Program-made: the position numbers and the translations under genes
Source: a virus
Direction: 5' to 3' (one strand)
Length of the DNA stretch: 24,428 nt
IMG/VR virus record: IMGVR_UViG_3300044302_004367
Coordinates: 1 to 24,428 of that record
Shown here: positions 6,957-21,376 of the stretch, piece by piece
Layout: every line of letters starts with the position of its first letter
Position numbering within the stretch: the first letter of the stretch is position 1
Notes under the pieces: model-generated
Databases searched by the model: none
What the model was told of the DNA's origin: nothing
What the model saw: the letters and a program-made list of their open reading frames with translations, nothing else

Positions 6957-9900
6957 CTATGCCATGTACCTTCCGCAAGACACATGGTGGCTTCCAGAAA
7001 TATCGTACAAGTTATCTTCATCTGAATCTCTCACAGCATTCTTATCAGAAGATATCAAGAAAGACCAAGGTTTTGTAACTTTAGTTAATATTTCAAGCCA
7101 AGCAGAAAGCGCTTTTCTCATATTTTCTGGCAATATAAACAGCTTCTGCGGACCAAAATCACCATATGTTAACAGGTATGTATTCTGACCTCTCAACTCA
7201 GTAGCCAAAGCTTTTTGAGCTGTTCCAGTAAACATTGACCTATGAGCTTGATATGCGGCTTCTTCTCCATGCCTATCAAAGCCTCTTCCAGTTCCTAAGT
7301 GTCCAAATATATCATGAACAGCTCTAAATTTATCGTTTTGCTCATTTGTAAAGAACGGGTGACCTCCAGTAACTTCAGTTTTTAAAACTTTAATTCTTTT
7401 ATTCTCTATAAAATCTTTCCTCATCTCTGCATAAGACCCATAAGGATCTTCATCAACAAACTCTACAGTTATGCCTAAGCCACCTTCTGATTCAGGTTTA
7501 GTAATAATATCCCACTGCTCTTCTACTTCATCAGCTAAGGCAGTCCAAGCTTCAGTAACCTCACCAGAAATTTGTTCTTTAGGAAGATCGGGCTCACTAG
7601 CATAAGTTCTACCAATATCTGTTCTTTCAGAAGGCTCCACTGCAGTAACTTGGCTCCAATCTTTTTTCTCTTTATGAAAAGCAGCTATGCTTTCTATGGG
7701 CTCAGCTACAGTAACAGTGACATCTTCGTCTGAGCGCTCGTAGGTTATTTCATCATCTACATCTGGAATGCCACTATCAGCCATTGTGTTTAGTGGCGGC
7801 TCATTAATGTCTGTGTCGTCATATTCTAAAACAGAAGTCTCAGGTCTTGTGTTCCTTACAGAAAGGCCTACAAATCTGTCAACCGTAACCCAACCTTCGC
7901 CTTGCATGCCCGGAGGTTGACTCATATCCTTTTCAATATCAGGCAAGTCTTCTTTTATCTTCTCAGCTTGAGCTTTTAAAGCTTCCTGAATTTCTTCGTC
8001 TGTTGCGTCGTCCATATCAAGATCTGTTTCTTGACCAATAACGTCTTTCAAGGTTTCTTCAACATATTCATTTGTAAAAATATTTGGAAATCTAGTAAAA
8101 GCAGAATAAGGGTTAGCTTCGTTATCACGAAAACCCTCAGGCAATTTATTATCATTATTTTGCCTTATCCTATCAATCTCCCTGTTGGTCCTATTAATAA
8201 TTGCCTCTGCGTCCCTAATCGCTGTAGGAGCTTTATCAAGTTTACTTGTATCTATGATAAATTCATGTTCTGGGAAAGAACCAAATCCTTGGGGAAAGCC
8301 AGACACAATAGCCTCTATCGGTACAGCAACTTCTACTATAAAACCATCTCCCTCTGCGAAATCCATAGCAGTTTCTGCGTCCAAAGCAAACGAAGCCAAC
8401 GGAGCATATTTAACATTTGAAGGAGTGTTAGGAGAATCGGTCTTAATTCCCCTGTATAACGTAACTCTTTCAATCCCTGCATCTTTCAAAACTTGCTGTA
8501 TAGTAGCAGACTCAGTTTCTAGTAAATGTTTAATAGCTTTAATAGATTGTTTATTGATACCTACCGTGGGGGAGTCCCATCTCAAATCGCTATCTTCTGG
8601 ATGAGATCCATCAGCCTCAGCGGCTTTAGCTAACTCAGACTCAACTGGAGTGTAATCAAACTTATCTTCCGCTTCCAGAATCTCTTCTGCGGTTATTCCA
8701 AGCAATGCTTGAATATCATCCTCATCTGTCCCTCCGATTTTATCCAAGTCTTCATATGTGGCGCCAGCAGCAAGCGACACAATAGTATCCCAATCATCTA
8801 ATGGTCTACCCTCAATTCCCCAAGACGTGACCTTACCGGCACCCTCAAGCGAATCCCGATACACAATTGCAATTCGTTTATCATCATCATAAGCATCAAG
8901 CAAAACATTAATAACAGCTTCTTTTTCTTTCGGATTTAATTTTCTGTTTTCTTTGTAAAACGGCATCCAAAACACTTTTTCAATTATCTCTTCTCTACTC
9001 ATTCCCGCCATTTCAGCCGCAGCTAATTGAGCAGAAATAATTTGAGAATCGCCTGCCCAAGCTGAATGTAGTTCACTAACAAATTTCTCTGCTAAATTAT
9101 TAAGATCAGATTCATTAATATCTTCATCAACTACTGAAGCGGCTACCGTAGCGTAATTCTTCAAAAACCATTCCTTAACATCATCAGGCACAGTCTCTAA
9201 AAGTTTCCTAGCAGTATTTTTAGAGCCCTCATTCTTAATAAGCTTTTTGACTTCTTCAAGATTTATTTCCGACCTATTTCTAAGTCGCTCACCTACATTC
9301 TCAGTTGGTGCTTTACCTACTCGGAATGGGTTACGAAGCGAAGCTATCTTAGCACGCAATTTACCTGTATGTAAAGATTTTCCAAGAGCCTCAGCAAAAG
9401 GCGTAAACTTATCAAGGTTTCTAAGCATCTTCTCAACACCCTCATCACCCTGCTCTAAAGCTTCTTGAAGCTCAATCGGATCATCGCTTCTAATACCCTT
9501 TGCAGCTCTTTTACGTGCGATAAATCTTTCAGCTGTTTTCTCAACAAAAGGACGCACAACCCTACCATAAATTGTTGAAAACTTTTTAGCCCTAGACAAT
9601 TCATCGTTTTTCTTTTCAGCTCTTTGCCTTTTAGCGTCATCAAACCTTTCAGCCATCGTACTCATAATTCTTCTTTTAATTAAAGAAGTAGTCTTCGGAA
9701 TGTTTTCTATTTCTAAATCTTCAGCTAGTTCTCTAATTTCATCAGGTTCCATAAGATCAAGCTCGTCACTGCTGATGTCCATAAAGTCATCCATGTCCAT
9801 AAAATCTGGGTCAGGAGTTGGGCTTGATGCAGCACCTGATGCTAATACATCCGACCTATAACTTGGCTTGTCAAGATTCCTTCGTTTCTTTTCTTGCTTC

Positions 9901-12900
9901 ATCTTTGCCGCAATTGCCAAACGTTTATTCTGTATTCGCCTATACACATCTTCATCAATCTCAGTACGAGAAATGACGGTGCCATTCAAATCCACAACAT
10001 CTTCAGAATTTTCATGAGCATCAATATAAACATCTAGCTTGCCATCGGGTATAAGCTTAACCGCTTCGTCAACAGATAATTGCCTATCACCCATAATGTT
10101 TTCAAAATTAGAAACAATATCATTTCGCTTTTTTGGATCAATTTTAGCTGAAACTCTTTTAGGTTTAGCCGCATCAGGATTCGCAGACATTCCATCATCC
10201 GTTATAACACCTAGCAAAGCATTCTTGACAGTAAATGAATCATCTACATTTTGAATGTCTACCACTTTTCTGATCAAAAGATCATCAGCTGCTAACGCTC
10301 TTTCTTCAACATATTTATTGGCCAACTTAAAAAGCTCAGGATTATTAATCTCTATAGCTTTCAATACATTTACTACATCTAATACGTCCTGAGGAATATT
10401 TTCTTTTGCTTCATTTATAACCACATTTCCTTTATCATCAAAATATATAACATTAGAAGCGTGTAAAGAAACTAACTCTTGTAATAATGCTTTTGCTTCT
10501 TCATCTCCGCCTGCTAGTTGAGAAATTCTTTCAAGCGTCATAGATTGAGCATATCCAAAAGCCCACAATTCTTCAGGCTTTCTCATATAAATTTGTTGGT
10601 TTACTTCCGGCACCAAGGTTCTGTTTTTATTAAAGTCAAGAATATTTACGTCTTTAACATCCGCATCACTTACCATATTCCGAACTTTCAGGACATACAT
10701 ATTTAAAATAACACTATTATAAATAACATCTTCATCTCCTGTTATTAAGCCTTCTAATATATTGGTGTTACGTGTAACGTCGCTTAGCGCTTCGTACTTG
10801 GATGACATGGCTATAGCCCTCACATAACGAACCCTAGCCTGCATGGCGTATGGCATATCTTCAAGAAGTTCTTCAAACTCATCGTCAGACATTTTTGACA
10901 AAGTTTTTAAAACAGCTTCTGGCGATCCATTTTCAGGGTTATAGTCAACTCTAACTGACTCTTCAAACAAACCACGTTTCTGAAGCTCTTCAAAAGTTAT
11001 ATCAAAACTTTTTTCATCAATAGTGATTCCCACTGCATCAAAAAATTCATCTACTATCTGTTCTTTTGTAGGGTTTGAAATGCCTCTTTTTTCAAGCCTT
11101 TCTTTAGCCCTTCTAATTCTAGTAGGAAAACGTTTAATAGCATTATCATAAATTTTATCTTTAGTTATTTTTATAGACCCAACTTCTGACTTAAATCTTT
11201 CTTCTTTATCTTTTATTGCCATCAAAACTGGCTTGTCCCTAAATCTTTCTGGAAGATACTTTCTCATAAACTTTTCAAAAACTGCATTCTTCTTAACTAA
11301 ATTCTGAAAAGTCTCTTTTATGGCAGATCTAGCATAGCCTTGAGGACTTGCTTTCCTGTAGTCATATCCGTGACCCGCCTCATGCACTAATATATCTACG
11401 GGGTCCCTACCCTTTATAACGATTATTCTATTACTGTCTTTATAATAACCTCCGTCCACACCCGGTTTAATTCTAGCTTGTCCTGTCCACGCTGGAGGCT
11501 TATTGCGATCTACAATTCCAAAAACATTTAATTTATTACCTTGCTCAACTACAGCATCAGCTTTTTGCGTACTAGCAATTATATCTAAAGCTTCATCAAG
11601 TTGGGCTGTACTCATAACCTCATCCAAAGATTTATCTTTTTTAAAGTTAAGTTTGAACCTTTCAAGGTCAGGTTTCTTAAATTGCACACGTTCCATCAAG
11701 CGGCTCACTACTCCCCTTCTTTTAACAACTGCAGCAGGAGGAGACTTAGGCGCACCCAACCCTCCATCAGTAGCATCGGGAAGCTCTGGAGAAGCAGCAA
11801 CGCCACCAACAGCGCTAACGGTAGTATCTACTACATCTTCTCCTCGTTCTATAGCTCGGTAACTTTCAGAGCTTTGAAGAAGAATCAAAGGATCAGGATC
11901 TATTTTAACAGGTTTGAAATCTTTTTCAAGAGCATCAATACCTTTGAGCCATCCATAAAAGTCATCTGAAATGCCTGCAATTTCTTCATAAGTAAAATGT
12001 TGCGGGAAATGCCACGAAGCTGCAACAGGATACGAATTATCCTCACCAACAGCCTTCCATTCTATCTTATTGCTCCCTTCAAAGATAGCCCTAACCTCTG
12101 GAGAAACCCTATCAAGCCTCTCCTCTTTAGCTCTAGTAAAAGACCAGATTCTCTCTACAAACTCCTGAACTTCTTCACTTGGGTCCCTTCTGTCACCGCC
12201 ATGCTTTTCGTACTGTTGCCAATACCGCCAATAATCTAAAACTTCTTTAAACGCTTCTTCATAGGTAAAGCCTGATTCACCCGAATTAACCCAATCGTTA
12301 ACGTCTCTTCTAATTTTCTCAAAAAGAGCTATTTCCACTTCAGGATGAAAATCTAGTAAATCATTCTCAGCCAAAATTTGCATAAACACAGCGTCTTCAG
12401 AAATTCTTGCCAAAGTTTCTACCGGCGTGTTCCAATAACTTCCAGAGTCCCTTGCTGAATCATCCCTCTGCAAAGCTCGTACCGTCCTACCACGATAAAT
12501 TTTTACAAGCACTCTAGCCATATGGTAACCAGCCATATCTTCTCTAGTACCATCTGGTTTTAAAGGAAAAGCTTTTTCAATATCTTCGTCACTAATAAGA
12601 CCTATTAATTTATCAGCATCACCATCTACTGTTCCAACGTCAATTCCAAAATCTTTACCTTTTTGAGTAGGAACTAAATCGCCACGCTCATCCACCTCAA
12701 GGTATCCGCCAGATATCAAAACAGCTGTCATAGCATTATTAGAATGGTAGGTGTGATTACTTCTCCAGTCTCTGGTATATTCTGTGGCTTTATCAGTGAC
12801 TGATGCATCTAAAGCATGATGATACTCATGTGTTAATATGCTTAAAGCATAACTTTGAAGATTATCTTTTATTTCTTTTTTCTTCTCTTCACTAGTATTA

Positions 12901-15900
12901 GGATCAGCCAATTTTTGAAGACGACGCTCCATGCCTTTTCCGGATATGTGTATTCTTTTAACTGGTTCCGTACCTGTCCCTATTTCCTTTATTGCAAAGT
13001 AGCCGCCAAATCCGGCTCCTTTTTCTGCTACTTCATTGCGAGCTTCTTGCGCTTCCATATACGCATCAGTAGGAACAAAACTAATAACAACTCTTTCTTC
13101 AGAAGTATTACCATTATTAGAATTCAAAATATTACTTAAAAGTGGAACAACCCCTTCCATTACGTTTTTGTATTGAATAGCCTCTGGAGTCTCATTTGCA
13201 TAAAATAAAACACCCCCAGAAAATCCATTAACAATGACAGGATTGTCATCCAGAGCTTGCTGCACATCTTCTTGCTTTCCAGCCAATGAAATTTTCTTTC
13301 TTCGTGCAAAATCAAAAGGATTTTCATAGTCAGTAACACGCACCAACATCTCGTCTATTTCTTTACCCTGTTTATCAGTCGTCATAAGCAAAATTTCTTT
13401 CATCTCTCCGATGCCCATTTCTTCTAACTCTTTTACAGTGTAAGTACCTTCTTTCTTTTTACCAAAACGTTTTTTAGGAACTGTCTCTAAAAACACCAAT
13501 CTGCCATCTTTAATAGACCAAAGCCTACCATCCCAATTTTTATCTATTACCCACTTATCTTGGCGTCGTCGGTAAATCATTCTTTGATTCAAAGTCTCAA
13601 CAAATTGAGCTTTTATTTTTTCTTTCGCATCAGGATCGCCTAAAGGAAGATCAGGTCTGCTATCCAAAAAGCTTATCAACTGGGACACAATCTCATTACG
13701 AAGTTTATGATCTTGAAAACTTCCATTGCCTTCAGGCACATCAATTTCTCCTAAATCAAATAACTCGTTATACATTTCATTAGCAATGAATTCCCTTGCT
13801 TCTTCACTAGTTGAACCATATGAATAGAAAGGGCTTCTAGGATCATCAAACGTAGTTCTGCTGGCCCTAACTTCCGGAACAAGCCTTATATCATCAGGAG
13901 CTTTAAAAGGCTTAAGATCCTGCTCCCCATCACTAATCAAAACCTCAGCATTAGGATCAACAATAGTCCAAGTAGGCAAACCCATCAGAGTATCATTATT
14001 ACGAGCATAAGTCCCCATAGCGTCAGAAAGCTCAGGAACTTCTGGAGTTTGCCTTATGGCTTCTGATCTCTGCCGTGGGTCAAGACCTTTCCTTTTGTTC
14101 TCTCCAAGACTCCACATATTAAATGCCAAAACATTATCTCTTAACTTACCACTAGATGGTAGCATAGCGTGAAGTATATCATCTCCCTTGGGGGCTTTAT
14201 CAAAAGAGGTCCCTGCTTCCTTTAGGGCATCGCTAACTGCCTTCTCATCAGCTGAATAAATATCAAATGCGCTTTGAGGTAACTTATCAACATCAATATC
14301 GCTTAACATGCCTTTTACACGCAAGTATCTTTCCCTATCGCCCAAAACAGCTGCCGCTATAATAAGCTCTGCATGCTCAGGATTATTAGGATCTAATCTC
14401 TTTGCTTGTCTAAGCTCATCAACTCTTTCCCAAGCCTTAACAAGTTTACCAGCAGTAACCAAACTTTGAGTTGTAGAAGCAGATGTTTTAGAAGGCGTAT
14501 AACCTTTATGCGCCCAAACAACGACACCTTTGTCAGAAGCCACTAACCTAGCTTTTTCAATACCTATTTCATTAGCAAACGTAAATGTATTCGTGTTAAA
14601 AATATCAGCTAATGACTCATCCAATGATCGTAGCTCAACTTCAACTTCTTTACCGTCACGCATAAATCTAGCAGTATGATCCGTGCCTAGATTCTCCATG
14701 AGCATCTGACCTTCAAGTAACCTTAACTCTCTAGCAGTTCCTCCATTTGCATAATCTCCAGTGCTTGTAGGATTTGGACCCTCTTCGCTATCATAAACAA
14801 GGTTATCATCGTTGTCATAAAGCCTAAAATGCCATCTTCCCCGCACAAGAATAGTATTATCTTGAGCTCTTTCAGGCGAAGGAGGCGGTCCTTGACCTTC
14901 TTCAAATCTTCTTTGCTGCTCAGCAAAATCATCACTAGGGAATCGTGTCCTATCAAGATCAACAATATGCTCGGCAGTTACCCTGTACTCTTCGCCTTCT
15001 ACAGTTTTAGTACCTAAATCTACCTCTTCCCCATCCATAAACATTTTTTTAAGATAGTCTTCTTTTTGCTGCCTACTAAGAGCAATAAATTTTTGACCCG
15101 CATCCTCAAATGTTTCGTCAATAAGCTCACCGTTTTCATCTTCAGGGTCAGGCACCTCCCAAGGGGCTTTAGAAATATCGCCATCTTTTCTCCAAATAAG
15201 ATTAAAAACTTTTTTAGCTCTTTCACGAGCAAGCATAAGCCTAGCTTTTTTCTCTTTTTGCCAACTATAACCATCTACAGCTTCTTCTAACTCGTCACCA
15301 GAAATAATTGGACCAAGATCATTGTCAACTTTTGTGTTCTTAACAACTGTCTCTACGGTTTCACCCCAGCCATCAGGAGTACGCTCTTCAACATCTATTT
15401 GTTCTGGGGTCTTATCACCTTGTCGCTCGCTCCTAACAGCAAGAGCAGCAGCAAGCCACTCCGAATCAGTCTCACTTAAACCATTTCTATCTCTGTTAGT
15501 TATAGAAGCATTAATGTAATCTTCTAATTGCGAATTGGAAAGCTCTCTTAAAAAACTTAGTTTCTCTTCATCTAGCTTAGGCGCAGTATTAATAGTACCT
15601 CTGGTATCGCCTATGGTTCTTGAGTTCTCAGCTATAGTTCCATTTGACTGACCTACAGTGGGAAATCTTTCACCAGTAGATAGTCTTTGACCAGACCAAC
15701 TTGGTGTATAATCAACACGATTGCCATTCCGATCTACAATTACTCGGCCACGCCTGTCTTCCATTGTCCTGCCGGGCACCCCTTCTTGCAAAAGGTTTCC
15801 TAGGTCATCGGCAATAAAGGTTCCTTTAGGGCGCTCCCATACAGTGCCCTCTTGAACTATCTGATCTAAATCTGCATCTTTGGGATTAGGCTTATACGGC

Positions 15901-15938
15901 TCTATACGTAAGCCACCCCATCTTTCTGTAACTGCCAT
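6957..15938 (-). CDS. Giant 2993-aa multidomain virion/effector protein (zincin x2, ADP-ribosyltransferase-like, HDxFGH domain)
   Basis: One uninterrupted 2993-residue frame. Visible elements in order: a charged N-terminal third without known motifs; H1037-E-Y-H-H1041 (HExxH) with E1174 in a Y-W-x-T-P-V-E-T-L-A-R context as likely third zinc ligand; and a second HExxH, H1519-E-A-G-H1523. A low-complexity acidic linker at about 2030-2060 leads into a SAP-like helical patch. Next is a region with R2496 (LYRGIK), S2516 (LASFALD) and E2557-x-E2559 (FPEHEF), the R-S-E/ExE pattern of mono-ADP-ribosyltransferases such as T4 Alt. The C-terminal region has H2875-D-I-F-G-H2880 and EEAAYQAHRSMF. There is no signal peptide or TM segment. 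This composition fits 'polyvalent' proteins packaged in virions and injected with DNA to cleave or modify host proteins. The gene lies in the structural operon and has its own promoter. Domain calls are by motif only. Confidence 0.85.
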   Translation of the reverse strand: MAVTERWGGLRIEPYKPNPKDADLDQIVQEGTVWERPKGTFIADDLGNLLQEGVPGRTMEDRRGRVIVDRNGNRVDYTPSWSGQRLSTGERFPTVGQSNGTIAENSRTIGDTRGTINTAPKLDEEKLSFLRELSNSQLEDYINASITNRDRNGLSETDSEWLAAALAVRSERQGDKTPEQIDVEERTPDGWGETVETVVKNTKVDNDLGPIISGDELEEAVDGYSWQKEKKARLMLARERAKKVFNLIWRKDGDISKAPWEVPDPEDENGELIDETFEDAGQKFIALSRQQKEDYLKKMFMDGEEVDLGTKTVEGEEYRVTAEHIVDLDRTRFPSDDFAEQQRRFEEGQGPPPSPERAQDNTILVRGRWHFRLYDNDDNLVYDSEEGPNPTSTGDYANGGTARELRLLEGQMLMENLGTDHTARFMRDGKEVEVELRSLDESLADIFNTNTFTFANEIGIEKARLVASDKGVVVWAHKGYTPSKTSASTTQSLVTAGKLVKAWERVDELRQAKRLDPNNPEHAELIIAAAVLGDRERYLRVKGMLSDIDVDKLPQSAFDIYSADEKAVSDALKEAGTSFDKAPKGDDILHAMLPSSGKLRDNVLAFNMWSLGENKRKGLDPRQRSEAIRQTPEVPELSDAMGTYARNNDTLMGLPTWTIVDPNAEVLISDGEQDLKPFKAPDDIRLVPEVRASRTTFDDPRSPFYSYGSTSEEAREFIANEMYNELFDLGEIDVPEGNGSFQDHKLRNEIVSQLISFLDSRPDLPLGDPDAKEKIKAQFVETLNQRMIYRRRQDKWVIDKNWDGRLWSIKDGRLVFLETVPKKRFGKKKEGTYTVKELEEMGIGEMKEILLMTTDKQGKEIDEMLVRVTDYENPFDFARRKKISLAGKQEDVQQALDDNPVIVNGFSGGVLFYANETPEAIQYKNVMEGVVPLLSNILNSNNGNTSEERVVISFVPTDAYMEAQEARNEVAEKGAGFGGYFAIKEIGTGTEPVKRIHISGKGMERRLQKLADPNTSEEKKKEIKDNLQSYALSILTHEYHHALDASVTDKATEYTRDWRSNHTYHSNNAMTAVLISGGYLEVDERGDLVPTQKGKDFGIDVGTVDGDADKLIGLISDEDIEKAFPLKPDGTREDMAGYHMARVLVKIYRGRTVRALQRDDSARDSGSYWNTPVETLARISEDAVFMQILAENDLLDFHPEVEIALFEKIRRDVNDWVNSGESGFTYEEAFKEVLDYWRYWQQYEKHGGDRRDPSEEVQEFVERIWSFTRAKEERLDRVSPEVRAIFEGSNKIEWKAVGEDNSYPVAASWHFPQHFTYEEIAGISDDFYGWLKGIDALEKDFKPVKIDPDPLILLQSSESYRAIERGEDVVDTTVSAVGGVAASPELPDATDGGLGAPKSPPAAVVKRRGVVSRLMERVQFKKPDLERFKLNFKKDKSLDEVMSTAQLDEALDIIASTQKADAVVEQGNKLNVFGIVDRNKPPAWTGQARIKPGVDGGYYKDSNRIIVIKGRDPVDILVHEAGHGYDYRKASPQGYARSAIKETFQNLVKKNAVFEKFMRKYLPERFRDKPVLMAIKDKEERFKSEVGSIKITKDKIYDNAIKRFPTRIRRAKERLEKRGISNPTKEQIVDEFFDAVGITIDEKSFDITFEELQKRGLFEESVRVDYNPENGSPEAVLKTLSKMSDDEFEELLEDMPYAMQARVRYVRAIAMSSKYEALSDVTRNTNILEGLITGDEDVIYNSVILNMYVLKVRNMVSDADVKDVNILDFNKNRTLVPEVNQQIYMRKPEELWAFGYAQSMTLERISQLAGGDEEAKALLQELVSLHASNVIYFDDKGNVVINEAKENIPQDVLDVVNVLKAIEINNPELFKLANKYVEERALAADDLLIRKVVDIQNVDDSFTVKNALLGVITDDGMSANPDAAKPKRVSAKIDPKKRNDIVSNFENIMGDRQLSVDEAVKLIPDGKLDVYIDAHENSEDVVDLNGTVISRTEIDEDVYRRIQNKRLAIAAKMKQEKKRRNLDKPSYRSDVLASGAASSPTPDPDFMDMDDFMDISSDELDLMEPDEIRELAEDLEIENIPKTTSLIKRRIMSTMAERFDDAKRQRAEKKNDELSRAKKFSTIYGRVVRPFVEKTAERFIARKRAAKGIRSDDPIELQEALEQGDEGVEKMLRNLDKFTPFAEALGKSLHTGKLRAKIASLRNPFRVGKAPTENVGERLRNRSEINLEEVKKLIKNEGSKNTARKLLETVPDDVKEWFLKNYATVAASVVDEDINESDLNNLAEKFVSELHSAWAGDSQIISAQLAAAEMAGMSREEIIEKVFWMPFYKENRKLNPKEKEAVINVLLDAYDDDKRIAIVYRDSLEGAGKVTSWGIEGRPLDDWDTIVSLAAGATYEDLDKIGGTDEDDIQALLGITAEEILEAEDKFDYTPVESELAKAAEADGSHPEDSDLRWDSPTVGINKQSIKAIKHLLETESATIQQVLKDAGIERVTLYRGIKTDSPNTPSNVKYAPLASFALDAETAMDFAEGDGFIVEVAVPIEAIVSGFPQGFGSFPEHEFIIDTSKLDKAPTAIRDAEAIINRTNREIDRIRQNNDNKLPEGFRDNEANPYSAFTRFPNIFTNEYVEETLKDVIGQETDLDMDDATDEEIQEALKAQAEKIKEDLPDIEKDMSQPPGMQGEGWVTVDRFVGLSVRNTRPETSVLEYDDTDINEPPLNTMADSGIPDVDDEITYERSDEDVTVTVAEPIESIAAFHKEKKDWSQVTAVEPSERTDIGRTYASEPDLPKEQISGEVTEAWTALADEVEEQWDIITKPESEGGLGITVEFVDEDPYGSYAEMRKDFIENKRIKVLKTEVTGGHPFFTNEQNDKFRAVHDIFGHLGTGRGFDRHGEEAAYQAHRSMFTGTAQKALATELRGQNTYLLTYGDFGPQKLFILPENMRKALSAWLEILTKVTKPWSFLISSDKNAVRDSDEDNLYDISGSHHVSCGRYMA

Positions 15939-18553: not shown

Positions 18554-19039
18554 TTATTCTTCACGAAGAGGTTTAAAGAAGTCTCCATTCATCCACATCA
18601 TACCTATAACAGAATAACCAATAATATCCAAATACGTGTCTTCAATAGACTCATTAGACGCCTCATACTGTTTTTCTAACAAGTTTTCAAGGCGAGCTAT
18701 CTTGTCATGAAGCCTTAATATCAAGCCTTTCTCAGCAAACCGTGCAATATTATTGGGCCCATAGTCTCTCTGCTTCTTAGAAAGGATTCTAGAGACCTCT
18801 ACGGCGCTTGCAAAAGGATGAGACTTGAGAGCTAGGGCTCCTAGGTCCAACCAACAAGAATCGTCTTCTAATTTATTGTCTCCGTGGAAGTAGTGATCAA
18901 TCATAAAATCAACCATAAGCCTGATCTCTTCCACAGGAGTTGTTGATAACCCCGAAACCCTATGATTCCAAACTCGCAAAGTGTGAACTAGGGCAGCATC
19001 ATCCCAAGTCTCCATCTGCATTCCTTCTAATAAGCTCAT
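18554..19039 (-). CDS. DUF1599 / nucleotide-modification-associated domain 1 protein
   Basis: A 161-aa protein whose second half matches the DUF1599 signature: KKQRDYGPNNIARF, then GLILRLHDKIARLENLL, then ESIEDTYLDIIGYSVIGMMW (about residues 86-153). DUF1599 has a helical, MazG-like look and is found next to genes for modified-nucleotide synthesis in phages. It may act on nucleotides, but the reaction is not established. AAAGGAG precedes the start, which overlaps the upstream stop as ATGA. It is the last gene of the three-gene operon from the promoter at 19749-19777. Residues 1-80 have no recognised motif and include a Trp/His-rich stretch. Confidence 0.8.
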   Translation of the reverse strand: MSLLEGMQMETWDDAALVHTLRVWNHRVSGLSTTPVEEIRLMVDFMIDHYFHGDNKLEDDSCWLDLGALALKSHPFASAVEVSRILSKKQRDYGPNNIARFAEKGLILRLHDKIARLENLLEKQYEASNESIEDTYLDIIGYSVIGMMWMNGDFFKPLREE

Positions 19040-19365
19040 TCTTTATCTCCTTTTTTTGGCGAAGCAAAGCTATGCTGAATAGCCAGCTTTAGCATATAAA
19101 GCAGCCACACAAATACCATTACGTTAAAGCATTCCCAGTAGCTTGCTCCAGCAGGAACAAAGTCCCAAGCTCTATTGGCATAGTCATTTAGCTTCATTAA
19201 GAAAAATCCAGATATAAAAGAAAGTATACCTATCCCAACCAAACCTCCGAAAACTTGACCAAGCCAAGTAACTAGTCCGTTCGTTGGCGCATTTCTTTTC
19301 TTGGTTTCAGTGGTTAACGATTCAAGAACCGCTTCCCACTCTTCTTTGCTTGCCTTCTTACTCAT
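19036..19365 (-). CDS. Small membrane protein, two predicted TM helices
   Basis: A 109-aa protein. Residues 1-28 are charged and soluble. TM helix 1 is about residues 33-58 (WLGQVFGGLVGIGILSFISGFF). TM helix 2 is about residues 78-96 (NVMVFVWLLYMLKLAI). The C-terminus is basic (SPKKGDKE). Size and topology are compatible with a holin or another phage inner-membrane protein, but it is not next to the lysin gene, so that role is not supported by context. AAGGAG lies five bases before the ATG; the gene overlaps both neighbours by four bases, showing a coupled operon. Confidence 0.7.
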   Translation of the reverse strand: MSKKASKEEWEAVLESLTTETKKRNAPTNGLVTWLGQVFGGLVGIGILSFISGFFLMKLNDYANRAWDFVPAGASYWECFNVMVFVWLLYMLKLAIQHSFASPKKGDKE

Positions 19366-19742
19366 GTTTTCTCCTTAATTATCTGATAAATCCACTGCCT
19401 GCTTAAACTGTACTCTCTAGCTAAAGCTGATGCGGACGCTCCTTTTGCATAAGCGATTTTTATTTTATTATTGCGATCTACTACAATGTTCTTTGATTTA
19501 GGTCCCGGCCTTACCGGACCCCATGTCCAACTAGGTACTTTTTCTAAAAGCTTTATCCTTCTATCAGAAAGCAATCCCTGACGATAGCGTGTTCTCATGT
19601 AACTAACCCAGTGACCTAAATTTATCTCTGCGCCATTATCTAAGAACTCTAAGTGTCCTGTTGGTACCAAAGCATCACCATATCTTTCTTGATAAGCTTG
19701 CAAAGCTTCGTAGTAGATACTCCATCTCTGTTCATGATTCAT
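19362..19742 (-). CDS. Helicase-associated (HA) domain plus HTH DNA-binding protein
   Basis: A 126-aa protein. Residues about 5-75 match one helicase-associated repeat: W-x(6)-L-x(2)-Y-x(2)-RYGDALVP, then INLGHWVSYMRTRYRQGLL, then RRIKLLEKVPSWTW. Residues about 88-125 look like a resolvase-type helix-turn-helix (IKIAYAKGASASALAREYSLSRQWIYQIIKEK). HA repeats are small DNA-binding modules, so the protein is likely a two-module DNA binder, perhaps a regulator of this operon. It has no Shine-Dalgarno; a near-consensus promoter puts its -10 box six bases before the ATG. It heads a three-gene operon with ATGA overlaps. Confidence 0.8.
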   Translation of the reverse strand: MNHEQRWSIYYEALQAYQERYGDALVPTGHLEFLDNGAEINLGHWVSYMRTRYRQGLLSDRRIKLLEKVPSWTWGPVRPGPKSKNIVVDRNNKIKIAYAKGASASALAREYSLSRQWIYQIIKEKT

Positions 19743-19748
19743 ACTACT

Positions 19749-19777
19749 ATTTTAGTAAAGATTTGTTTACATGTCAA
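19749..19777 (-). promoter_or_regulatory. Near-consensus sigma70 promoter of HA-HTH operon, leaderless geometry
   Basis: Minus strand: TTGACA (19777-19772), a 17-base spacer, TAAAAT (19754-19749), six bases, then ATG at 19742. The -35 is perfect and the -10 matches at five of six positions. No Shine-Dalgarno lies between the -10 box and the ATG. Confidence 0.8.
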
Positions 19778-19797
19778 GTCCGGATTTAGAAAACTGG

Positions 19798-20886
19798 TTA
19801 AGGTAAGCCTATATATTCATGAGACCAACATATTCTAGTGTTATCAGCGTAGTGGTTTTTCCAAACATCATCATGCTTTATATCTGTACGCAATTTTCTA
19901 TTTTTACTAGTAGCTTTCCATACATCTGACTTTTCCCTATAGTTGCCCATACTAGGGTGAGCTGTTCTAGAAAAATATCGCCCTTCTTGTTCTAAGTACA
20001 CTTGGGCAATAGCGTCAGAGAACCTATTGCCTATACCGAGTCCTTGAAAGTCTGGCAGAACAACTGTTCGGTGCTCTCTCCACCCATTCTTAACAGTTCC
20101 GCTTGGGTATCTCATTACCGAACTAAAACCTACTAAGTTTCCTTCCCATACCGCTGCGTAACAATGAGAGGCTTTATTTAAAGAAGAGCTCAGATAGTGA
20201 TGCTTTTTAAAAACTGGCCAGTAGTGGTAAGTTGTTCTGTATATGTCAAGTTGTATTGATGGTCGCCGAAGATACCTCCCAGTATAAAAGTTTCCCGTAA
20301 ACGTATCAAAAACCCAATCAGGTCTCAGCCACTCCAAAATGTCATAATGGCATGAAGCAATAACTATGCCCTGTAGGTTGTTCTTGTCTACATAACGTCT
20401 AAAAGCATTTGATGTTGAAAAAGCAACATCCCTATTAACCACTGATGTGTACTCATCTATCAAAGCCCCACTTTCTAACTGCCTAGCCAAGTCGCATCTA
20501 AACTGCTCACCGTTTGATAACTTATCATAAGGTAAAGTCATTTGTGGTATAGAATTGAATCCAACTGCAGAAAACTTATCAATGCCTTCTTCAGGTGTTG
20601 CAAAATGAGAGATTACTGATCGTTCATGGTCCCACTTGGGCTGCCACACATGATCTGGATTTAGTGATCTTAGTAACGTAGATTTTCCGCTTCCACTAGG
20701 ACCAATTATGGCTCCAATGCCAAACTCATCTGGCAAGGTCGGAAGTTGTTTTATTTCTGTTACGATTTCACCTTCAAAACGAAAATCAAAAAATTCTGCT
20801 AATTTTTCAGTATATTCATCATGATTAACAATTGTTTTAAGCTCAATTGTTTCAGGGGACTTCTCAATTAATTCTAGCTGCTCCAT
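19798..20886 (-). CDS. ABC-type ATPase fused to GNAT acyltransferase domain
   Basis: A 362-aa protein. Residues about 35-205 form an ABC ATPase: Walker A GPSGSGKST (62-70), Q in SIPQM, signature LSNGEQ (123-128), Walker B ALIDE with D144/E145, and H-loop H180. There are no TM segments, so it is not a transporter. Residues about 225-350 look like a GNAT fold with the acyl-CoA loop QGLGIG (281-286) and an unusual Trp/His-rich C-terminus. GNAT-type Mom of phage Mu modifies adenine in DNA; a DNA- or RNA-directed acyl transfer driven or gated by ATP is possible here, but the substrate is unknown. The ATG at 20886 has GGAG nine bases upstream and lies one base after the previous stop. A longer frame from TTG at 20922 is less likely. 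Confidence 0.82.
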   Translation of the reverse strand: MEQLELIEKSPETIELKTIVNHDEYTEKLAEFFDFRFEGEIVTEIKQLPTLPDEFGIGAIIGPSGSGKSTLLRSLNPDHVWQPKWDHERSVISHFATPEEGIDKFSAVGFNSIPQMTLPYDKLSNGEQFRCDLARQLESGALIDEYTSVVNRDVAFSTSNAFRRYVDKNNLQGIVIASCHYDILEWLRPDWVFDTFTGNFYTGRYLRRPSIQLDIYRTTYHYWPVFKKHHYLSSSLNKASHCYAAVWEGNLVGFSSVMRYPSGTVKNGWREHRTVVLPDFQGLGIGNRFSDAIAQVYLEQEGRYFSRTAHPSMGNYREKSDVWKATSKNRKLRTDIKHDDVWKNHYADNTRICWSHEYIGLP

Positions 20887-20887
20887 T

Positions 20888-21250
20888 TTATTTAACTCCA
20901 TAATATTCAATCTCTCTAGCAAGAGATCTAATTTCTTTTACAGTTTGGTCTTTGCCAACTTCTTCAGACCATAAAACTATATCTTCATGTACTTGCATCT
21001 CTATAGCATCCCAACACATAATAAATCTAGAAACAAATTTTCTTGGTACCATATCTATCAGCACATCAAAATCGTCTGATGCAGTTTTTATAGGCATCCC
21101 ACATATAAGCGCTATCGCATAAGGTAATGATATTTCACCATCTTCATTTCTAGGTGCAGAGTCAGAAAGCCCTACATCATGAATTAAATTGGCAAGATGA
21201 TCTAAGTCAACGTAAATCTTAGCATTATTTAATTCTTTAATAGATAGCAT
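20888..21250 (-). CDS. Hypothetical acidic protein upstream of ABC-GNAT gene
   Basis: A 120-aa protein starting MLSIKELNNAKIYVDLDHLAN and ending REIEYYGVK. It is acidic and mostly helical by composition, with no motif I recognise. It is separated by one base from the ABC-GNAT gene and probably co-transcribed with it, so it may be a partner of that protein. It has no Shine-Dalgarno. A promoter (TTGACT, 18 bases, extended TACAAT) ends six bases before the ATG. The gene lies directly after an intrinsic terminator, so its expression may be set both by the promoter and by read-through. Confidence 0.7.
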   Translation of the reverse strand: MLSIKELNNAKIYVDLDHLANLIHDVGLSDSAPRNEDGEISLPYAIALICGMPIKTASDDFDVLIDMVPRKFVSRFIMCWDAIEMQVHEDIVLWSEEVGKDQTVKEIRSLAREIEYYGVK

Positions 21251-21256
21251 ACATCT

Positions 21257-21286
21257 ATTGTAACAAAAAGATGGGGCTCAAGTCAA
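21257..21286 (-). promoter_or_regulatory. Promoter of 120-aa gene, overlapping the terminator
   Basis: Minus strand: TTGACT (21286-21281), an 18-base spacer, TACAAT (21262-21257) preceded by TGT (extended -10), six bases, then ATG at 21250. The -35 box lies in the loop of the terminator hairpin and the spacer covers its 3' arm and T-run. Confidence 0.65.
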
Positions 21287-21299
21287 GCTGAACCCCATC
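21265..21299 (-). terminator. Intrinsic terminator after the nrdJ 3' region
   Basis: On the minus strand a GATGGGG/CCCCATC stem (21299-21293 with 21276-21270, 7 bp plus a few inner pairs) is followed immediately by TTTTT (21269-21265). This is a good rho-independent terminator for transcripts from nrdJ or from the local promoter at 21383-21412. Confidence 0.8.
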
Positions 21300-21376
21300 C
21301 TAGATAATTTGGAAAGTTGATGACCGGCTACATCAACCGAAAATTCCTCCTTCGTGTGGGGTTAGCCTTCCGGTAT
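21265..21376 (-). ncRNA. Candidate structured RNA / attenuator between nrdJ and the 120-aa gene
   Basis: About 110 bases downstream of a TATAAT box and ending in the terminator above. The minus-strand RNA has a perfect hairpin GUUGAUG/CAUCAAC (21337-21331 with 21322-21316). Its 8-base loop UAGCCGGU can pair with upstream GGCUA (21367-21363) or ACCGG (21374-21370), a possible pseudoknot. AACCCCA (21363-21357) is complementary to UGGGGUU (21297-21291), the 5' arm of the terminator, so an antiterminator fold competes with termination. A perfect AAGGAGG (21352-21346) precedes an AUG directly followed by UAG at 21333-21328. It could be a small RNA or a conditional leader for the 120-aa and ABC-GNAT genes. 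I do not recognise a known riboswitch class. Confidence 0.5.

Follow-up and report, generated by a model that had tools for sequence, protein, structure and literature searches.

Mom of phage Mu (PF25680, phrog_1384; PDB 8bv8, 'Methylcarbamoylase mom') is, like the protein described here, a member of the GNAT superfamily; its activity is the modification of adenine N6 in DNA. Iyer and colleagues predicted a family of ABC-ATPase-coupled GNATs (reference 136 of PMC7824862, and PMC7824862 itself), and PMC7824862 predicts DNA base acylation for this family and names a homologue in Tenacibaculum phage pT24. Mom has no ABC ATPase, whereas members of the ABC-GNAT family have one that is either fused or adjacent, and the Mu Mom sequence lacks the QGLGIG CoA loop that is present in ABC-GNAT. 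In the literature searched, we found no mention of COG2401 and no paper joining ParB, Mom, ABC and acetyltransferase.

We analysed a viral stretch of 24,428 nt (IMG/VR record IMGVR_UViG_3300044302_004367; hereafter, the window), in which a 362-aa ABC-GNAT fusion protein is encoded at 19798..20886 on the minus strand, as are all features given below. The protein starts at MEQL, and the in-frame ATG and TTG codons further upstream overlap the preceding 120-aa gene. It belongs to the phrog_11143 ABC-GNAT family: this profile, in which ABC is followed by GNAT, covers the full length of the protein (residues 13–360, E 1.2e-110), domain order and motifs are identical to those of the ABC-ATPase-coupled GNAT family with no essential difference, and the pT24 homologue is 39.5% identical. 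In Pfam searches, PF00583 (GNAT) was matched above the cut-off (E 2e-6) and PF00005 (ABC_tran) at the cut-off (25.0 bits). Motif conservation was assessed in an alignment of 62 relatives, and it bears out the complete ABC ATPase motif set and the GNAT loop claimed in the original prediction. The Walker A motif GPSGSGKS (residues 62–69, 20680..20703) has G62, S64, G65, G67 and K68 invariant; the ABC signature LSNGE (residues 123–127, 20506..20520) has L123, S124 and G126 invariant, along with R130 in the same region. Walker B (LIDE, residues 142–145, 20452..20463) retains D144 and E145 in all relatives and is followed by YTSVVNR, where S148, V149, V150 and R152 are also invariant, as is the switch histidine H180 (20347..20349). 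Within the GNAT half (residues 204–362, 19801..20277), H230, Y231 and L232 of an HHYL motif (residues 229–232, 20191..20202) are invariant, and so are Q281 and G282 of the QGLGIG acyl-CoA loop (residues 281–286, 20029..20046), G284 and G286 being nearly so. The AlphaFold2 model is confident (mean pLDDT of 90.8 for the whole protein and 91.0 for the GNAT half), and the GNAT half resembles solved N-acetyltransferases with Z up to 14; nearest in fold, among the 50 matches listed, are enzymes that N-acetylate proteins or small molecules, RimI and Ard1 for example.

By sequence, the protein does not belong to the Mom family, given that neither Mom model (PF25680 and phrog_1384) matched it at E values up to 1. 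Profile–profile comparison of the GNAT half with Mom gave weak values (probabilities of 0.5% and 2.8%, with P of 0.11 and 0.016). A first ABC-GNAT alignment of 14 sequences yielded nothing significant against the Mom profile; with deeper alignments, Mom reached P 0.016 against 0.59 for a reversed Mom control, and the hhalign alignment with P 0.016 places the HHYL motif in register with the HYS motif of Mom, so that an HY motif would lie at the same place in both proteins. This profile likeness is suggestive only. The Mom structure 8bv8 was not among the 50 matches listed (VIA-align), where general GNATs appeared; the BFVD matches include a phage protein named Mom (E 5.5e-4).

The two enzymes are also linked by genomic context, as they occupy exchangeable slots and have Com and ParB-like neighbours in common. 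In Porphyromonas phage011a, ABC-GNAT follows the last tail gene, and in phage014a Mom follows the same gene (88% identity over 425 aa). Com, the regulator of Mom, lies ahead of Mom in Pseudomonas PAN70, and in Pseudomonas Komp_PAO1_1 a homologue of it, with matches to phrog_6417 and phrog_13819 ('gpCom control of modification'), lies ahead of ABC-GNAT; identity between the Com-like frames of these phages is 67%. Enterococcus 9184 and PMBT2 have the polymerase body on one side of ABC-GNAT or Mom and glutaredoxin on the other, in slots that are close, not identical. A ParB-like gene was detected directly upstream of ABC-GNAT in at least 64 of 80 clade A representatives, and the same ParB-like family directly upstream of an Appa-type Mom subfamily in at least 69 of 79 loci, both counts being lower bounds because the simple gene caller mis-picked neighbours in some high-GC loci (L016 and L017). 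The ParBs of Gordonia Jace and Microbacterium Appa are 58% identical over 98 aa, and the C-terminal tail of the ParB-like protein differs, one type accompanying ABC-GNAT and another Mom. In the clade of the window protein, a ParB-like gene lies upstream in only 1 of 70 cases, and the evidence from clade A therefore carries over only by homology; a 31-kb contig of the same phage, itself a fragment, contained no match to ParB or Mom. Mom (PF25680/phrog_1384) adjoins ABC-GNAT in three loci (L129, with a 4-nt overlap, L131 and L060), that is, in 3 of 70 compared with 226 of 50,697 phage records (P about 0.004, a rough value). A few phages carry both genes next to each other, so simple redundancy does not account for the pair. 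C5 methyltransferase genes flank ABC-GNAT in the near relatives L003 and L004, joined in L003 by MT-A70 and SNF2.

Taken with the published prediction, these links suggest, with a probability of roughly 0.6, that ABC-GNAT, acting as a single gene, acylates DNA bases of the phage genome in an ATP-dependent manner and so evades host restriction. It would play the role that Mom has in phage Mu. The DNA substrate, the acylation of an amine, the ATP-driven clamp and the evasion of restriction are all predicted. Two ABC domains would pair, ATP would drive their closure on DNA and position it, and the GNAT domain would move an acyl group from acyl-CoA held at the QGLGIG loop to an exocyclic base amine, the acceptor, close to which the HHYL motif would lie.

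A wider and more tentative reading is that phages have a common DNA-acylation system in which ABC-GNAT and the enzymes of one branch of Mom can replace each other, with a shared ParB-like partner. The ParB-like protein may then associate with the enzyme that a given phage encodes by means of an exchangeable C-terminal tail, which is zinc-ribbon-like (CPxC) where Mom is encoded and has the form V-x-V-x-C-x-(D/S)E-x2-Q where ABC-GNAT is; a separate gene of 42 to 49 aa sometimes encodes the ABC-GNAT type of tail. ABC-GNAT would be the ATP-driven, acyl-CoA-dependent DNA base acyltransferase of such a system, its product would be a modification so far unseen in DNA, and the clade of the window would have given up the ParB-like partner.

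RNA cytidine acetyltransferases such as TmcA consist of a helicase-type ATPase joined to a GNAT and act on RNA. They thus combine both activities in one nucleic-acid-acting protein, as predicted for ABC-GNAT, although the ATPase of the latter is of the ABC type and the genomic context differs. Given this resemblance in layout, ABC-GNAT might have RNA as its substrate: the ATPase would remodel it, the GNAT would acylate it, perhaps at a tRNA base, and the effect would be to counter tRNA-targeting defences or tune translation. Its GNAT profile does match RNA cytidine acetyltransferases weakly (E 0.04); however, these matches are confined to 24 residues in the vicinity of the CoA loop, and genome context ties the gene to Mom, Com and DNA methyltransferases, making an RNA substrate unlikely. 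We consider it equally improbable that ABC-GNAT acetylates a protein, be it the RNA polymerase of the host, a restriction enzyme or one involved in defence, and that its ABC part acts as a sensor or clamp. RimI and Ard1 are among the closest solved folds in the 50 matches listed, and PMC7824862 treats phage GNATs whose targets are host proteins, but this explanation leaves unaccounted for both the exchange with Mom behind Com and the shared ParB-like family. For the whole model, Foldseek ranked transporter nucleotide-binding domains at the top, as would be expected if the ABC half served transport and the gene were part of an importer or exporter. Non-transport ABC ATPases have the same fold, though, and the membrane protein of the window belongs to an independent backbone (see below). 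A transporter role was rejected because no membrane partner recurs beside ABC-GNAT, there being no membrane-domain family among its recurrent neighbours, and we regard it as the least probable of all the functions considered. The DNA-acting ABC ATPases (Rad50/SbcC, the OLD family, MutS and UvrA) are likewise soluble and without a membrane partner, and ABC-GNAT is proposed to act on nucleic acid as they do. It differs from them in its minimal domain without coiled coils and in carrying an acyltransferase instead of a nuclease; no close sequence relation is claimed.

The neighbouring genes were considered as possible partners. ABC-GNAT lies 1 nt downstream of the 120-aa gene (20888..21250) and is followed by genes for an HA and helix-turn-helix protein (19362..19742; PF03457, E 6e-16), a 109-aa membrane protein (19036..19365) and a DUF1599 protein (18554..19039; PF07659, E 1e-7). 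No Pfam or PHROGs family was matched by the 120-aa gene or the membrane protein. The original prediction had placed all five genes correctly on this strand, and its DUF1599 and HA assignments hold, but it had joined them into a DNA or nucleotide modification module. The gene spacing is indeed tight in the window and in the near relative L002, and DUF1599-like genes lie close to ABC-GNAT in two other loci. In a related 128-kb phage (G003), however, the order is RNR, 120-aa gene, HA, membrane protein, DUF1599 and tail genes (identities to the window of 44% for the 120-aa gene, 65% for HA, 30% for the membrane protein and 56% for DUF1599), with no gene between the 120-aa gene and HA, i.e. the site is empty of ABC-GNAT. 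Its own ABC-GNAT, 82% identical to that of the window, is located about 70 kb from there, in the midst of genes for DNA methyltransferases. Since the same gene order exists without it, ABC-GNAT is a lone, movable and independent cargo gene, and its neighbours in the window are unrelated bystanders of the phage backbone that form no part of its system. Comparison of neighbourhoods agrees: apart from the same phage and one near relative, no locus compared has the 120-aa, HA or membrane gene close to ABC-GNAT, DUF1599 is close to it in just the two loci mentioned above in addition, and 20 of the 22 ABC-GNAT records searched lack DUF1599 (one of the 20, L002, has a copy cut by the contig end). The recurrent linkage expected of a module is thus absent from other phages, and a joint module is very improbable; what survives of that proposal is a DNA-modifying role for ABC-GNAT itself, favoured by the genomic links to Mom and the published prediction. 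Directly before HA lies a sigma-70-like promoter (TTGACA-17-TAAAAT, 19749..19777, 11/12 consensus), which is conserved in G003 (TTGACA-17-TATCAT) and also argues against the module. As this promoter-like site of HA's own is downstream of ABC-GNAT, we discounted HA as a regulator of the whole operon. A terminator-like hairpin (21268..21301; 14 pairs, then a T run) is located between RNR and the 120-aa gene, and a further promoter-like site (TTGACT-18-TACAAT, 21257..21286, 10/12 consensus) may serve the 120-aa gene and ABC-GNAT.

The ABC-GNAT family is widespread: it was matched in 51 phage records (E<1e-5) and is present in at least 597 viral stretches and in 406 cellular ones; plasmids contained only three copies, all distant. 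The 31-kb contig of the same phage encodes a single ABC-GNAT gene and no second copy, both contig and window being fragments. Many database entries label the family as a transporter ('ABC iron siderophore transporter', 'hemin importer').

DNA acylation had already been predicted for this family, and the genomic support, namely the Mom/Com slot exchange and the ParB-like partner, is added here; together, the exchange and the shared partner point to the function of the family. That function can be tested in cultivated phages that carry ABC-GNAT, including Lactococcus P335, Pseudomonas Komp_PAO1_1, Gordonia Jace and Leptospira LE3. If DNA is acylated by ABC-GNAT, an ATP-dependent type of enzyme would join phage DNA modification, and both a novel modified base and a novel means of escaping restriction would be expected.

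The window is a 24,428-base fragment of a contractile-tailed phage, with tail sheath and class II ribonucleotide reductase (RNR) genes present, and its minus strand reads RNR, a 120-aa gene, the 362-aa ABC-GNAT gene (19798-20886), HA-HTH, a 109-aa membrane protein, DUF1599 and structural genes. A terminator-like hairpin overlapping a promoter-like site lies between RNR and the 120-aa gene (21257-21301). The window also encodes a 2993-aa protein (6957-15938) with no Pfam match, in which an ADP-ribosyltransferase-like stretch (LYRG ... SFA ... EHEF) was spotted by eye and which may be a polyvalent injected protein; G003, a 128-kb contig of a related phage, matches it only weakly (23% identity across 277 aa).

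The domain calls made from the sequence were borne out by Pfam matches to GNAT (PF00583), ABC_tran (PF00005), HA (PF03457) and DUF1599 (PF07659), and phrog_11143 matches the ABC-GNAT protein along its full length (E 1e-110). In an alignment of 62 sequences, the Walker A, signature, Walker B and switch-histidine residues show no variation, and H230, Y231, L232 and the beginning of the QGxGxG loop are likewise invariant. The AlphaFold2 models are of high confidence (pLDDT 90.8 for the whole protein and 91.0 for the GNAT half); the whole model groups with ABC nucleotide-binding domains in Foldseek, and the GNAT half with solved N-acetyltransferases in VIA-align (Z up to 14).

The proposal that ABC-GNAT, HA, the membrane protein, DUF1599 and the 120-aa gene form one module did not hold, as G003 has the same order without ABC-GNAT there. 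The contig is genuinely related to the window phage: its 100-120 kb region is collinear with the window, with homologues of a 237-aa gene, RNR (83%), the 120-aa gene (44%), HA (65%), the membrane protein (30%), DUF1599 (56%), the tail sheath (53%) and others, and no ABC-GNAT was found between the 120-aa gene and HA. HA instead starts about 55 bases past the 120-aa stop codon, with TTGACA-17-TATCAT between them, and at the corresponding site the window carries ABC-GNAT and then TTGACA-17-TAAAAT ahead of HA. Given the empty site and the promoter-like sequence before HA in both phages, HA, the membrane gene and DUF1599 are probably transcribed as a unit of their own, and ABC-GNAT stands outside it as a single gene. 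In three near relatives (loci L002, L003 and L004), ABC-GNAT is 81 to 85% identical; the window's neighbours are retained in L002, and none of them lies close to ABC-GNAT in L003, the locus within G003, or L004. In the neighbourhood survey, the window's own phage and L002 were the only cases with the 120-aa, HA and membrane genes close to ABC-GNAT; DUF1599 was close to it in these and two other loci. DUF1599 matched in 2 of 22 ABC-GNAT records, a count in which L002 was scored as lacking it, its copy being cut by the contig end; one of the two is G003, where about 74 kb separates the gene from ABC-GNAT. Two distant clade B phages encode DUF1599-like proteins (phrog_1485) no more than about 1 kb from ABC-GNAT (L063, 2799-3194; L126, 3236-3559), too few cases to make a linkage.

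In G003, ABC-GNAT lies near 35 kb and adjoins ThyX, a histone-deacetylase-fold protein, C5 DNA and MT-A70 methyltransferases and an SNF2 helicase. The histone-deacetylase-fold gene, whose product could be a deacylase counterpart, is located three to four genes upstream of ABC-GNAT in both methyltransferase clusters (L003, 6569-7516; L004, 5732-6652). Two ParB-like genes in G003 (C1, 7308-7544 and 9236-9448) are far from ABC-GNAT.

The protein was found in 51 phage records by tblastn, and pattern scans gave 406 stretches from genomes of bacteria and archaea and at least 597 from viruses. The ABC and GNAT parts are encoded by two neighbouring genes in phages of Streptococcus, Lactococcus, Oenococcus, Enterococcus and Thomasclavelia. 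A midpoint-rooted tree of 150 representatives splits into clades A and B (support 0.82), the window protein falling in clade B. A ParB-like gene lies directly upstream of ABC-GNAT in 64/80 clade A loci versus 1/70 in clade B, counts that are not natural frequencies because sampling favours relatives of the window; annotation adds one clade B case, Leptospira LE3.

This partner is shared with one branch of the DNA-modification enzyme Mom. The ParB-like proteins preceding ABC-GNAT in Gordonia Jace and Mom in Microbacterium Appa are 58% identical over 98 aa, and a profile made from ABC-GNAT partners detected the gene directly upstream of Appa-type Mom in 69 of 79 loci and upstream of another Mom branch in 0 of 80 (Mom loci with the gene fall within L215-L294). 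One ParB-like family accompanies two different acyltransferases (before ABC-GNAT in L010-L015, L023 and others), with a distinct C-terminal tail for each. The tail that goes with ABC-GNAT reads about V-x-V-x-C-x-(D/S)E-x2-Q...G-x-x-C+-L-x-L; the inspected proteins associated with Mom carry a zinc-ribbon-like CPxC tail. In Komp_PAO1_1, Porphyromonas and Chromobacterium, the ABC-GNAT-type tail is encoded directly upstream by a small gene of its own (42-49 aa; L026, 4672-4800; L028, 4678-4827; L210).

The two enzymes also exchange places. Behind a last tail gene that Porphyromonas phages 011a and 014a have in common (88% identity across 425 aa), 011a carries ABC-GNAT and 014a carries Mom. Ahead of ABC-GNAT in Pseudomonas Komp_PAO1_1 lies a zinc-finger gene akin to the Mom regulator Com (phrog_6417; phrog_13819, 'gpCom control of modification'), and a relative of it precedes Mom in Pseudomonas PAN70. 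Enterococcus 9184 and PMBT2 have ABC-GNAT or Mom between polymerase and glutaredoxin genes, a slot that is near rather than identical, since the 9184 ABC-GNAT comes ahead of the last polymerase part. The 9184 ABC and GNAT genes (L029, 2791-6307) are within the DNA polymerase gene region, whose last segment is an in-frame continuation of the GNAT reading frame. Mom proteins (PF25680, phrog_1384) neighbour ABC-GNAT in L129, L131 and L060, the last assigned by similarity to the other two; with Mom in 226 of 50,697 phage records, three of 70 would seldom arise by chance (P about 0.004, the two collections being different).

In both families the first helix is followed by an invariant HY, in register in both hhalign runs. 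The alignment scores poorly (best P 0.016, against 0.59 for the reversed control) and supports kinship no further than the GNAT superfamily. ABC-GNAT differs from Mu Mom in having retained a normal CoA loop, a feature that points to an ordinary acyl-CoA as the donor.

An ABC-coupled GNAT acylating DNA has already been predicted in print, citing earlier work (PMC7824862), and the window protein adds a member to this predicted family. The papers compared contain no account of the empty site, the exchange of slots with Mom and Com or the swap of ParB-like tails, features that may be new. In Komp_PAO1_1, Porphyromonas 011a and Gordonia Shatter, the gene that directly follows ABC-GNAT encodes a formyltransferase-fold protein (phrog_9240; L026, 5924-6397; L028, 5936-6553; L030, 1805-2452), which may tailor the transferred group in these phages. 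What the analysis shows directly is the fold, the motifs and the genomic links. We infer that DNA is the substrate, with the ABC domains most likely dimerising on ATP to grip it and the GNAT domain most likely acylating a base amine of the DNA so held; such acylation would shield the phage genome from restriction.
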